Shown here in pieces: positions 17,536 to 20,109 of a stretch of 41,005 nt of DNA. Position 1 is the first letter of the stretch, and each line of letters opens with the position of its first letter. The notes beneath the pieces are model-generated. The model did no database searches and was not told the origin of the DNA. It saw nothing but the letters and a program-made list of their open reading frames with translations. Position numbers and translations under genes: made by a program. The DNA is from Hyperthermus sp. (GTDB lineage Archaea; Thermoproteota; Thermoprotei_A; Sulfolobales; Pyrodictiaceae): contig QNYQ01000016.1 in NCBI GenBank assembly GCA_003978665.1, forward strand, positions 1-41,005, in the 5' to 3' direction.

Positions 17536-18660
17536 CTAGGCGAAGATCCAGGGGGTTGTAGCCCGTAAGCACTCTAGAATGTGGTCTATTAGCTGTTCCA
17601 GCCCTACTCCTTTGAGCGCAGAAATTCTCGTGGCTTCTCTTCTACAGAGTCTGCTACTACTTACGCCCTCTAACTCTTTTACTAGCACGTCCTCCGCTTT
17701 TTTTACGACAGCCTGGGGGGCTAGGTCTATCTTGTTTATGGCGATCATGAGTCTCGTAAATTTCTTGTCTACTAGTTCTGCTATCTCACTTGCGAGTCTG
17801 GCTTGCTCCCGTATGCCGCTTGCCGGGCTGGGTGAGGCATCTACCAGGAAGAGTATTATGTCTGGTAGGCTCTTTAGTGCTGCTATGGCCTTCTTCTCTA
17901 TGGGCGTGTACTTGCTAGGTGCTTTCTCCAGTATTCCCGGCGTGTCTACTATGTAGAAGTGGGGTGTTCTCGTCGTTACTTTGCCTACTATTATTTGCTT
18001 TGTTGTGAAGGGGTATTCTGCGATCTCTGGCTTGGCTGTTGAGAGTTTCGAGACCAGGGTTGATTTTCCGGCGTTGGGTATGCCGGCTACAACTACTATG
18101 GGTAGGCCCTCGGCTATTACATGGGTTTTTGCGAGTTCCCGTCTAACCTCGGAGAGTAGTTTCAGGTGCTTGTTGAGCCTCCTTACCACTGAGAGTATTC
18201 TGCCGCAGCCCTCCTTCCTAAATCTCGCTGCTTCCCTTGGATTGTTTGAGGTGGTTATGAGTAGCTTGTACTCGTCCCAGAATTTCTTTACAAGTCCCAC
18301 TCCCTTCTTGAGTTGTCTTAGTGCTCTGCTGTATGCGTCTATTCCTATAAAGGCTTCCAGTAGGGCTTTATGGTAGTCTCCCATCTCCTTTATGCTGGGC
18401 ATTCTCGCTGCCTCCTTGAGCTTGGAGTACGCGATGGTGTATACTGTTTCGAGCCTTCTAAGCTCGAGCTCTATTTTTCCCCTACTACCTCTCCTACGTT
18501 GCCGAAGCTTTCTGTAACGTTTCCCAGCCATCTCTACTATCTCGTCACTAGTTGCTACATGTATGGATTGGATTCTTTTAGCTAGTGCTGCCAGGCGTTG
18601 TAGCTCTATGTGTCTTTCAAGCCAAGGGACCCTTAAGGATAGGTCCCCCTCCCCGCTCAT
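17536..18660 (-). CDS. NOG1-type GTPase, probable ribosome biogenesis factor
   Basis: A 374-residue Obg/NOG1-class GTPase. An N-terminal helical domain (to about residue 200) precedes G1 GIPNAGKSTLVSKLS, a conserved threonine in EYPFTTKQIIVG, G3 DTPGILEKAP and G4 NKIDLAP. Eukaryotic NOG1 acts in assembly of the 60S subunit; the archaeal counterpart is presumed to act in 50S assembly. It starts ATG at 18660, four bases after the TFB-like gene stops, indicating one operon. It runs convergently with rtcA, 10 bases apart. Confidence 0.93.
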   Translation of the reverse strand: MSGEGDLSLRVPWLERHIELQRLAALAKRIQSIHVATSDEIVEMAGKRYRKLRQRRRGSRGKIELELRRLETVYTIAYSKLKEAARMPSIKEMGDYHKALLEAFIGIDAYSRALRQLKKGVGLVKKFWDEYKLLITTSNNPREAARFRKEGCGRILSVVRRLNKHLKLLSEVRRELAKTHVIAEGLPIVVVAGIPNAGKSTLVSKLSTAKPEIAEYPFTTKQIIVGKVTTRTPHFYIVDTPGILEKAPSKYTPIEKKAIAALKSLPDIILFLVDASPSPASGIREQARLASEIAELVDKKFTRLMIAINKIDLAPQAVVKKAEDVLVKELEGVSSSRLCRREATRISALKGVGLEQLIDHILECLRATTPWIFA

Positions 18661-18664
18661 AGCC

Positions 18665-19291
18665 TTACCCGGTTATGGTTTTCAGAGCGGGAGCTTGATA
18701 TTGTTGCTGTTGAAGACTCTTAGCCAGGAGTTCGCGGAATGACTCTATTCCGAGGCACTTCCTGATCCTCGATAAAAGTCTTCTAACCTCTTTCTTTTCC
18801 ACTCCATAGGTCTCGGCTATTTCGGAGAGGAGGGGATAATCGTTATTGGCCAGGGTGATGGCGACATGCAGTGCTGCGGCTGCCTCCAACTTACTCCTCT
18901 TAGCCAGGAGCTTTCTCAAGCACTTGTTCTTGGAGAGTATGCTCAACGCCTCCCTTATATAGTAGTCCTCGCTGAAGACATCAAAGAACGGGTTTTGCTC
19001 GCCCAGTGATGAAGCCAGCTTGTACTCGGATCTCACAAGCACCAGTCTCGCTCTGCTTCTCCTCTCCTCGAACAAGTTGTTTATATACCGAAAAGTCCTC
19101 CCTTCTCTCGACGGCCCACCTTTACGCACGGCTGGTGATATGTCGAATAGGGTGTCTTCGATCACGTATCCGCAACTCCTACACACAACCTGGCCATGAG
19201 CATAGTCTACCACAATGTTGCTGGAGCCGCAAAAAGGACATGTGTATACGTCACGCGAAGCAACTTCTAACACTTGTCCCCTGGCCCTCAT
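18665..19291 (-). CDS. Short TFB-like protein with zinc ribbon and one cyclin-like repeat
   Basis: A 208-residue paralogue of transcription factor B (archaeal TFIIB). The N-terminal zinc ribbon is CPFCGSSNIVVDYAHGQVVCRSCGYVIED (CxxC...CxxC), followed by a B-finger-like linker. The C-terminal part has EAAAALHVAITLANNDYPLLSEIAETYGVEKKEVRRLLSRIRKCLG, resembling one cyclin fold; a full TFB has two repeats and about 300 residues. It may regulate RNA polymerase or compete with TFB, like Tfb3-type proteins. ATG at 19291 has GGTGTAGG upstream. It is directly upstream of the NOG1-type GTPase gene. Confidence 0.8.
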   Translation of the reverse strand: MRARGQVLEVASRDVYTCPFCGSSNIVVDYAHGQVVCRSCGYVIEDTLFDISPAVRKGGPSREGRTFRYINNLFEERRSRARLVLVRSEYKLASSLGEQNPFFDVFSEDYYIREALSILSKNKCLRKLLAKRSKLEAAAALHVAITLANNDYPLLSEIAETYGVEKKEVRRLLSRIRKCLGIESFRELLAKSLQQQQYQAPALKTITG

Positions 19292-19393
19292 AGGCTCCTA
19301 CACCTACCCTACCCGCGTCGCCTCCGCCCATGCACCCTTCCTGGGCATCCTCATCAAAAACATAACTATGTGTGTGAGTTGGCTGAAAGTGTT

Positions 19394-19432
19394 GTAGTAC
19401 TGGCAGCCCAGTATTACAATAATGAGTACTAC
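19394..19432. repeat. Nested inverted repeats between divergent genes
   Basis: GTAGTACTGG (19394-19403) and CCAGTATTAC (19408-19417) form a 9-of-10 inverted repeat around a four-base centre. A third element, AGTACTAC (19425-19432), is the exact reverse complement of the first eight bases. The array sits between the divergent TFB-like and proteasome beta1 genes, upstream of the beta1 TATA box. It suits a regulator-binding site or a structural DNA signal. Confidence 0.6.
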
Positions 19433-19451
19433 AAGGGAAGGGCTAGGCGAG

Positions 19452-19461
19452 AAGATAATAA
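19452..19461 (+). promoter_or_regulatory. TATA box for proteasome beta1
   Basis: AGATAATAAC on the + strand is a reasonable TATA box. It lies 40-49 bases before the TTG start, predicting initiation near 19482, inside the hairpin before the start codon. Confidence 0.4.
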
Positions 19462-19475
19462 CCGCTATGGGGTAG

Positions 19476-19494
19476 CCCGCCAGCGCGAGGCGGG
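19476..19494 (+). repeat. Hairpin immediately before proteasome beta1 start
   Basis: CCCGCC (19476-19481) and GGCGGG (19489-19494) form a perfect 6-bp stem with a 7-base loop, ending six bases before the TTG start. The right arm contains the most likely ribosome site (GGCGGGTG), so pairing would hide it. If transcription starts near 19482 the stem would be lost from the message. Confidence 0.5.
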
Positions 19495-19500
19495 TGTGCT

Positions 19501-20109
19501 TTGAGCTATGGTGTCGGGGCTACGGCTGTCGGCATAAGGGGAGAGGGTTTTGTCGTGCTTGCCGCCGAGAGGAGGGTAAGCTATGGCGGCTTTATAGTGA
19601 GCAGGAGCGGGAAAAAAATATATAAGATAACTAATTATTTAGGCATAGCCCTAGCCGGGCTCTTCGCAGACATACAAGCTTTAGCAAAGATCCTCGCAGC
19701 CGAACTATCCTACCACGAGATAACCGTTGGCCAGAGAATGAGTGTGAAAGCAGCATCAAAACTACTCGCATCCATACTCTACTCGTACAAATACTATCCA
19801 TTCCTCTCAGAGATACTCATAGGAGGTATAGAGGAGAGCGGAGAGGCAAAGCTATACGTAATGGACCCCCTAGGATCCCTAATAGAAGACGATTACGCCG
19901 CAATAGGCTCCGGAGCACCTATAGCCATAGGAGTAATAGAGAACGGGTACAAAGACTCGTTGAAAGTTGAGGAGGCAAAAGAACTGGCCCTCTCAGCTGT
20001 GAGAGCTGCGATAGAAAGAGACGCTATGTCCGGAGACGGGATAGACCTGCTGGTATTAGAGAGGAGGGGAGAAGCTATTACAGCCCAAGAGGAGAGCATA
20101 AAATTGTGA
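19501..20109 (+). CDS. psmB1: Proteasome beta subunit 1 (lacks catalytic Thr1)
   Basis: A 202-residue 20S proteasome beta subunit. The N-terminal GATAVGIRGEGFVVLAAERRVSYGG aligns with the TTTVGI motif of active beta subunits, but the nucleophilic Thr1 is alanine, so this subunit should be catalytically dead. Crenarchaeal genomes commonly carry one such beta subunit next to an active one, here 22006-22659. The rest of the fold is intact (GSGAPIAIGVIE, SGDGIDLLVL). The start is TTG. A very AT-rich tract (19612-19642) lies in the coding sequence at a composition switch. It overlaps the EndoV gene by four bases. Confidence 0.95.
   Translation: MSYGVGATAVGIRGEGFVVLAAERRVSYGGFIVSRSGKKIYKITNYLGIALAGLFADIQALAKILAAELSYHEITVGQRMSVKAASKLLASILYSYKYYPFLSEILIGGIEESGEAKLYVMDPLGSLIEDDYAAIGSGAPIAIGVIENGYKDSLKVEEAKELALSAVRAAIERDAMSGDGIDLLVLERRGEAITAQEESIKL
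19612..19642. other. AT-rich tract at the strand-composition switch
   Basis: About 31 bases beginning AAAAAAATATATAAG and ending TTATTTA are almost pure A/T inside an otherwise GC-rich gene (coding for KKIYKITNYLG). It coincides with the switch of the + strand from G/T-rich to A/C-rich. It has loose ATATAA..TTATTT symmetry, but the spacing does not match a standard dif site. Confidence 0.5.

Follow-up and report, generated by a model that had tools for sequence, protein, structure and literature searches.

The window, a 41,005-nt stretch of Hyperthermus sp. DNA, contains a short gene on the minus strand for a protein with a TFB-type zinc ribbon, followed by a NOG1-type GTPase gene and facing a divergent proteasome gene. 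The locus has the following features:

17536–18660, minus strand: NOG1-type GTPase gene, 374 aa, 4 nt downstream of the tfb3-type gene; MMR_HSR1, NOG1_N and NOG1 matches
18665–19291, minus strand: tfb3-type gene, 208 aa, ATG start; zinc ribbon, long helix and a single predicted cyclin-like repeat
18743–18973, minus strand: predicted five-helix cyclin-like repeat, residues 107–183, with a profile link to TFB core repeats
19007–19099, minus strand: predicted long helix after the ribbon, residues 65–95, of low confidence (block pLDDT 46–67)
19133–19246, minus strand: TFIIB/TFB zinc ribbon, residues 16–53, four Cys (PF08271)
19292–19500, no strand: divergent promoter region between the tfb3-type gene and psmB, from gene coordinates
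19361–19370, minus strand: putative weak TATA-like sequence, CATAGTTATG, 20 nt downstream of the point where the element below begins
19385–19390, minus strand: ACTTTC, which fits the A(N)TTTC damage-response element of PMC5817253 and PMC9738581 and has its start 99 nt before the ATG
19501–20109, plus strand: psmB, proteasome beta subunit (PF00227), the divergent neighbor, a locus marker in Sulfolobaceae-type genomes too

Families are numbered, with the Pyrodictiaceae as f1, and the genome of the window is G000.

A preliminary description of the gene, made from the letters alone, had proposed that the protein keeps the zinc ribbon of TFB. PF08271 matches residues 16–53 with an E value of 8.5e-15 and all four Cys retained, and the nearest solved structure to the ribbon is 1pft (TFIIB; E 6.6e-8). 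The B-reader, present after the ribbon in the canonical TFB of the same genome (L002; assembly 61 percent complete), is absent, and the best match of the NCBIfam TFB model NF001658 spans residues 12–57 with 46.8 bits against a cut-off of 384. The ribbon alone was reliably detected, as Pfam, NCBIfam and phmmer gave no match to a cyclin-like repeat. An assignment to the canonical TFBs, which carry a B-reader and two cyclin repeats, was rejected for a protein of 208 residues with one modeled repeat that lies on the far side of a tree branch with 100/99 support. Brf factors have two cyclin repeats and a C-terminal Brf homology region, and a TFIIIB/Brf assignment was also rejected given the 208 residues and single predicted repeat. 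Two further Cys residues, 124 and 179, lie inside the predicted repeat and are invariant across the window protein and seven close orthologues; a disulfide is possible in a hyperthermophile protein. The main canonical TFB of Pyrodictiaceae retains two of the four zinc-ribbon Cys (CPPE...CTLT type) in all 17 loci read (L002, at 1438–2385 of G000:C24, and L153–L169), whereas the short protein keeps four. The same Cys loss occurs in Sulfolobus TFB1.

The part after the ribbon was modeled with AlphaFold2 from eight sequences. The model contains the ribbon, a low-confidence helix (65–95) and a helical bundle (108–180), with an overall pLDDT of 72.0 and a pTM of 0.46; ten-residue blocks from 111 to 180 reach pLDDT values of 81–96. 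The top Foldseek match was a chain of a TFIID-based pre-initiation complex (E 7.2e-4), identified as TFIIB by its length and its neighbors in the match list; single chains are otherwise called TFIIB/TFB from entry titles or, for 5iy7, from a sequence match. Structural alignment placed residues 107–183 onto one TFIIB/TFB repeat (5iy7_M, Z 7.1, rmsd 3.1 over 76 residues; 1ais_B of the P. woesei complex, Z 6.3), but a common helical arrangement could give Z values below 8, and helical bundles can reach them by chance. Cyclins and sigma region 4 were also among the matches. The model of an Ignisphaera orthologue has a similar architecture, with Spo0A ranked first (Z 7.6 and 7.2) and many TFIIB/Brf chains below (Z of 6.3 or less). 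Post-ribbon profiles matched canonical TFB with E values of 1.9e-5 for the other families, 4.9e-4 for f1 and 5.9e-4 for f11 (hhalign probabilities of 78, 32 and 29 percent), where the best of 20 column-shuffled controls each were 0.063, 0.19 and 0.13, respectively. Because the model, the structural alignment and profiles that beat their shuffled controls agree, we think that Tfb3 retains one degenerate cyclin-like repeat, a view that draws on the profile comparison mainly via the order-wide family. This is in line with the preliminary description, which had expected about one repeat and pointed to residues 90–200. In PMC2246294 and PMC5817253, Sulfolobus TFB3 is described as lacking a C-terminal HTH or DNA-binding domain.

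The coupling to NOG1 was confirmed by the coordinates of the 208-residue frame and by the domain matches of its neighbor. The stop codon (18665–18667) is 4 nt from the ATG of the GTPase gene, whose product matches MMR_HSR1 (6.8e-22), NOG1_N (4.8e-17) and NOG1 (1.2e-14), and the two genes probably share a transcript. This spacing had led the preliminary description to suggest a regulator of ribosome-related transcription, and the linkage does recur: by tblastn with the window NOG1 (E < 1e-10, within 1 kb), NOG1 lies downstream of tfb3 in 28 of 77 loci from four families (f1, 13/18; f6, 8/8; f9, 5/7; f10, 2/3). It was not found in any of the 41 loci of f2, f3, f4, f5, f8 and f11, contig ends not excluded; in f11 a thermosome gene occupies its place. 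No ribosomal gene was recognized downstream of the element sites described below, which were read by inspection and unsystematically. The linkage is not universal. The coupling is real but a regional neighborhood, and because NOG1 is a regional neighbor only, the ribosomal role lacks support; we regard it as very improbable.

Proximity to psmB was scored in the 76 further loci, of which 31 have a divergent PsmB within 500 bp and 12 at 0.5–3.5 kb. By family, and with the window included in f1, it is found in 17/18 loci of f1, 12/12 of f11, 4/4 of f4, 5/7 of f9, 3/3 of f10 and 3/8 of f6. In f2, f3, f5 and f8, psmB was found beside tfb3 at no locus, and nor was NOG1; orthology in these four families therefore relies on profile, tree and promoter. 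In G002:C1, the cluster NOP2-NMNAT-RtcA-NOG1-tfb3-psmB-EndoV-G1PDH-psmB2-CPSF occurs twice, about 126 kb apart (L034, L035), with clearly different tfb3 sequences, reflecting either duplication or a mixed assembly.

The short gene belongs to a family widespread in its order. Of 98 related genomes, 86 gave matches in a protein search; many of these matches were short frames (about 170–250 aa), and others were to the ribbon of a canonical TFB alone. When 300 genomes drawn from the phylum were searched with the family profile, the near-full matches listed outside the window's class were TFBs of canonical length, except for a 199-aa frame in G452 (C164:2834-3373) that matches nearly the whole profile and could represent contamination, transfer or a wider family. 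Short frames inside the class yet outside the order were found in G098, G101 and G102. A search with a narrower family alignment found 16 loci in named records; five of these, close matches among them, were labeled Pyrodictium or Pyrodictiaceae, which places the window's genome near that family, and none was a Sulfolobus record. A Micrarchaeota-labeled match (L126) was rejected as a short family member, being a TFB of canonical length.

Shortening from about 300 to 208 residues could suggest a decaying TFB duplicate, and damaged copies do occur: in the nearly complete relative G008, tfb3 is split into two frames (L048, G008:C16:6124-6628), and G159 has two frames of about 90 aa (C105, C71), both matching the first half of the profile only. 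Against decay, length and zinc ligands are kept across families, the promoter element is conserved, and dN/dS is 0.07–0.24 in 11 of 14 close relative pairs, the other three being saturated. The tfb3-type gene is thus, by its sequence record, a selected family rather than a chance frame or a decayed TFB. Neither of the two grounds for refutation named in the preliminary description was borne out: the model does have a helical repeat, and the gene is no decayed copy, despite the split frame of G008. Decay is refuted in substance and can be given almost no weight.

In a tree of 77 rows, 20 canonical TFB rows lie on one side of the branch with 100/99 support and 57 short rows on the other. The 18 Pyrodictiaceae rows form one group (100/98). 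Just 12 percent of bootstrap trees unite the 13 f11 rows, and a branch with 99/95 support separates these and four f6 rows, on its canonical side, from the other short rows, Pyrodictiaceae included. The rows are short, several branches are long, and 26 of the 52 "rest" rows were used. Because of the 99/95 branch and the scattering of f11, the tree speaks against a simple story, and a single origin of Tfb3 is a possibility only. Left out of the 77 loci counted elsewhere were L048 (split frame), L062 (cut), L108, L109 and L112 (canonical TFB), L111 (long frame) and L110 and L152 (fillers); L142–L146 and L149–L151 are likewise not among them. Family f7 is absent from the count, having divergent short frames alone (184 aa in G025, 193 aa in G035 and 171 aa in G070). 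These frames (G025:C1:1271010-1271513, G035:C1:1247872-1248288 and G070:C66:3175-3576) match the Tfb3 profile from position 17–19 on and are perhaps Tfb3 proteins with a damaged zinc ribbon.

The relationship to Sulfolobus TFB3 was traced with published S. solfataricus qPCR primers for tfb3 (PMC2246294). The forward primer has no mismatch in one (G217) of nine genomes tested, and the reverse primer also matches G217 exactly, with outer ends 148 bp apart inside a short TFB gene and including its stop codon. That gene is divergent to genes for a 92-aa protein, HisS and PsmB, and is followed by a thermosome gene; because of the exact primer matches, f11, the family of G217, is taken to be the Sulfolobaceae. 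TFB3 also goes by the name TfbX, and Saci_0662 is psmB. A primer match with three mismatches in G226 (L142) was dropped as tfb3, psmB not adjoining it. Compared directly, the post-ribbon profiles of f1 and f11 matched weakly (E 0.02, hhalign probability 2 percent; shuffled controls 0.25 or worse). Intermediates gave stronger links, with E values of 9.5e-6 between f1 and the other families and 1.3e-7 between the other families and f11; the best column-shuffled control across all post-ribbon comparisons was 0.063. Since the direct match is weak and TFB probabilities are low, the orthology of f1 and f11 is argued from the locus and the intermediates.

The upstream region supplied a further link. 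According to PMC5817253, A(N)TTTC is required by the upsX and upsE promoters of S. acidocaldarius and also precedes tfb3 orthologues in those Sulfolobus species that were tested, and S. islandicus Orc1-2 binds ANTTTC (PMC9738581). This hexamer lies at −110 to −40 upstream of tfb3 in 59 of 77 loci, compared with 8.6 expected from letter shuffles and 6/77 on the opposite strand, and is present in at least half of the loci in 29 of 38 genera. It is absent from that interval in 18 of the 77 loci, including 3 of the 18 from Pyrodictiaceae. Within 150 nt upstream, the counts are 15/18 for f1 (2.5 expected, 1 reverse), 10/12 for f11 (4.6 and 3) and 38/47 for the others (9.3 and 7); the excess in f11 is the weakest because its promoters are rich in A and T. 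The element was found in 25/31 loci with psmB nearby, 8/12 with psmB further off and 25/33 without psmB, and these counts indicate that it goes with tfb3 and not with psmB. Most Pyrodictiaceae tfb3 promoters carry an extended form, TASTTTCGG. The window's own box at −99, CACTTTCAG, is not of this form, and the spacing between element and TATA at tfb3 differs from that of the published Sulfolobus promoters.

The extended box also occurs before the recombinase gene radA. In 20 genomes of the family, TASTTTCGGYY has 75 sites and its reversed pattern 57; of the 75 sites, 70 were read, with 13 preceding radA, and 8 precede tfb3 by their coordinates. The box lies 68–70 nt before the radA start codon in 13 genomes, including that of the window (an earlier start is possible in two, again including the window's), and TATATA begins 24 nt after the box start in 13/13 of these promoters. 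RadA of the window's genome matches PF08423 with an E value of 3.3e-91. In total, a radA box was present in 14 of the 16 Pyrodictiaceae genomes with a radA match, the remaining two being G007, with a box at tfb3 and none at radA, and G009, where the gene start was not read; the G016 gene start was read via L204, not L253 or L260. Outside Pyrodictiaceae, the radA promoters of 35 of 73 matched genomes were looked at. TASTTTCR occurs within 150 nt upstream of the radA match in f4 (3/3), f7 (2/4), f10 (1/1) and f6 (1/10); it was not found there in f8 (0/1, where a plain A(N)TTTC is present), f9 (0/4), f2 (0/3) or f3 (0/1). The f7 genomes with a radA box are ones where the Tfb3 profile finds divergent short frames only. 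All eight f11 (Sulfolobaceae-type) genomes sampled lack TASTTTCR before radA, which fits the measured near-lack of radA induction in Sulfolobus: after UV, radA was not induced in S. solfataricus and changed two-fold in S. acidocaldarius (PMC2246294). One TASTTTCGGYY site, seen in a single genome (L193, G001:C59), is followed 62 nt on by a gene that was labeled topoisomerase VI subunit B-like by inspection.

For the second of the Orc1 paralogues of Pyrodictiaceae, a script detected the element inverted directly before the ATG (GAAANTATG) in 12 of 15 loci, and inspection by eye added L302; the first paralogue gave 0/13. Three loci were set aside: L291 (in the window's genome; the other paralogue type by its N-terminus), L283 (no frame) and L307 (weak match). 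The position of the element directly before the start codon suggests that the second paralogue controls its own gene. Loci such as L298 and L304 have another inverted copy of A(N)TTTC, about 30 bp past the first and within the coding sequence, which may simply reflect residue conservation there.

A pattern derived from tfb3 promoters for use across the order gave 35 sites in 96 genomes, compared with 6 for its reversal. Among 30 sites read, 20 precede tfb3, Orc1, radA, pilin-like or other small genes: tfb3 at 8 (expected by construction), Orc1 at 2, radA at 1, pilin-like small proteins at 4, a small protein with two hydrophobic stretches at 1, a SWIM-finger protein at 2, and a short zinc-ribbon-like and a short ribbon-helix-helix-like frame at 1 each. 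The other 10 are intragenic or lack a clear downstream gene. The Orc1 genes in this set, and the labels pilin-like, two-stretch, zinc-ribbon-like and ribbon-helix-helix-like, were assigned by inspection; one pilin-like gene is in the window's genome (G000:C2), and the f11 one alone has a sub-threshold Pilin_N match. The small SWIM zinc-finger proteins (L352, L353; G032, G042) have the order-type element about 50 nt before the start, with PF04434 at an E value of 3.8e-7 for L352. The element is thus common to tfb3, an Orc1 paralogue, radA and (by inspection) pilin-like genes.

The box shared by tfb3 and radA might instead be a general promoter element, given that a strong TATA box follows it at a fixed 24 nt in 13/13 radA promoters, a position where a core-promoter element could sit. 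Once the tfb3 and radA sites are removed, however, TASTTTCGGYY is no commoner than its reversal (54 and 57 sites), and it is missing from the radA promoters of the eight f11 genomes. The same hexamer is moreover functionally defined at the ups and orc1-2 promoters of Sulfolobus and present at tfb3 (PMC5817253, PMC9738581). A general promoter role is a possibility, if an unlikely one, and a damage-response element is the preferred reading.

Taken together, locus, promoter and family comparisons, with the analogy to Sulfolobus, make it likely that the window gene is the Pyrodictiaceae orthologue of Sulfolobus tfb3, encoding a co-activator that would bridge RNA polymerase to a damage regulon, one that probably includes the recombinase outside Sulfolobaceae. 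By analogy with the Sulfolobus orthologue, DNA damage would cause an Orc1-2 regulator to act at the element, so that tfb3 is made, and the zinc ribbon of Tfb3 would dock on RNA polymerase. The single cyclin-like repeat and the helix may contact the TFB-TBP-promoter complex or Orc1-2, and the polymerase would thereby be bridged to element-bearing promoters, which in Pyrodictiaceae, judged by promoter sequence, would include radA and tfb3 itself. The second Orc1 paralogue, a candidate counterpart of Orc1-2 only, would read the box, and NOG1, second on the transcript, is probably a passenger.

Sulfolobus TFB3 is UV-induced, binds RNA polymerase and competes with TFB1 for it in vitro (PMC2246294). 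Competition with TFB at the polymerase, which the preliminary description had put forward, has hence been observed for the orthologue, and it raises a different reading: a dominant-negative TFB whose ribbon fills the polymerase dock and which, having one core repeat and no B-reader, would block TFB and damp general transcription under stress. The short ribbon might even bind better, because the main Pyrodictiaceae TFB keeps two of four zinc Cys (17/17 loci) and the short protein all four. Later work nevertheless has TFB3 as an activator that stimulates transcription together with TFB1-TBP-DNA (as cited in PMC7289017 and PMC5817253), deletion of tfb3 makes Sulfolobus UV-sensitive (PMC6934391), and the box in tfb3's own promoter is that of activated genes. 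A blocking role is consequently judged quite improbable beside that of a co-activator. In the open-licence PubMed Central literature we found no report of Tfb3 or of A(N)TTTC in Pyrodictiaceae or of a box at radA, no expression or binding data for any member of the family, and no mention of a cyclin-like repeat in Tfb3.

The window protein and TFB3 of Sulfolobus/Saccharolobus (SSO0280, Saci_0665) are alike in the four-Cys ribbon, the missing B-reader, the short length, the divergent psmB and the upstream A(N)TTTC. They differ in that the post-ribbon sequence of the window protein is very divergent, NOG1 and not a thermosome gene lies downstream, psmB is adjacent and not two genes away, and radA shares the box in Pyrodictiaceae but not in the eight f11 genomes sampled. 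The single degenerate repeat proposed here from the model also contrasts with the description of Sulfolobus TFB3 in the papers cited above, and offers a structural idea of how Tfb3 might touch the promoter complex. With canonical archaeal TFB and TFIIB, the window protein shares the zinc ribbon and a predicted repeat that aligns with the core repeats; it differs in lacking the B-reader and B-linker, in having one repeat instead of two and in lying across a supported branch. The protein itself joins a known family; what differs is the wiring. The finding points to a function for the short TFB-like genes that many genomes of the order carry, and it widens the range of the damage element, for which we found descriptions in Sulfolobus species.

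Pyrodictiaceae are hyperthermophiles that live near or above 100 °C. We give even chances to a wider proposal based on these promoter sequences, in which Pyrodictiaceae and some neighboring families would use one box, an Orc1-type regulator and Tfb3 to control the regulators and RadA, forming a LexA-free counterpart of the SOS response, and in Sulfolobaceae the recombinase would have dropped out of the regulon or never have belonged to it. As in the Sulfolobus Orc1-2/Tfb3 damage response (DDRE), the element occurs at tfb3, an Orc1 paralogue and pilin-like genes; in contrast, the Pyrodictiaceae element is also at radA with fixed spacing and stands inverted immediately ahead of the second Orc1 paralogue's start codon. 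The 2007 UV study (PMC2246294) concluded that repair genes show no strong induction in Sulfolobus and that only bacteria appear to have a coordinated SOS response. If the radA box works as the element does at damage-induced Sulfolobus promoters, that conclusion would fail for Pyrodictiaceae, which would induce recombination. The arrangement would resemble the bacterial LexA/RecA system (PMC2246294) in one respect, in that the recombinase gene and the genes of the regulators themselves are preceded by the box of a regulator; it would differ in having no LexA, since by analogy with Sulfolobus an Orc1-type AAA+ protein and a TFB paralogue would read the box, and in acting by activation and not by derepression.
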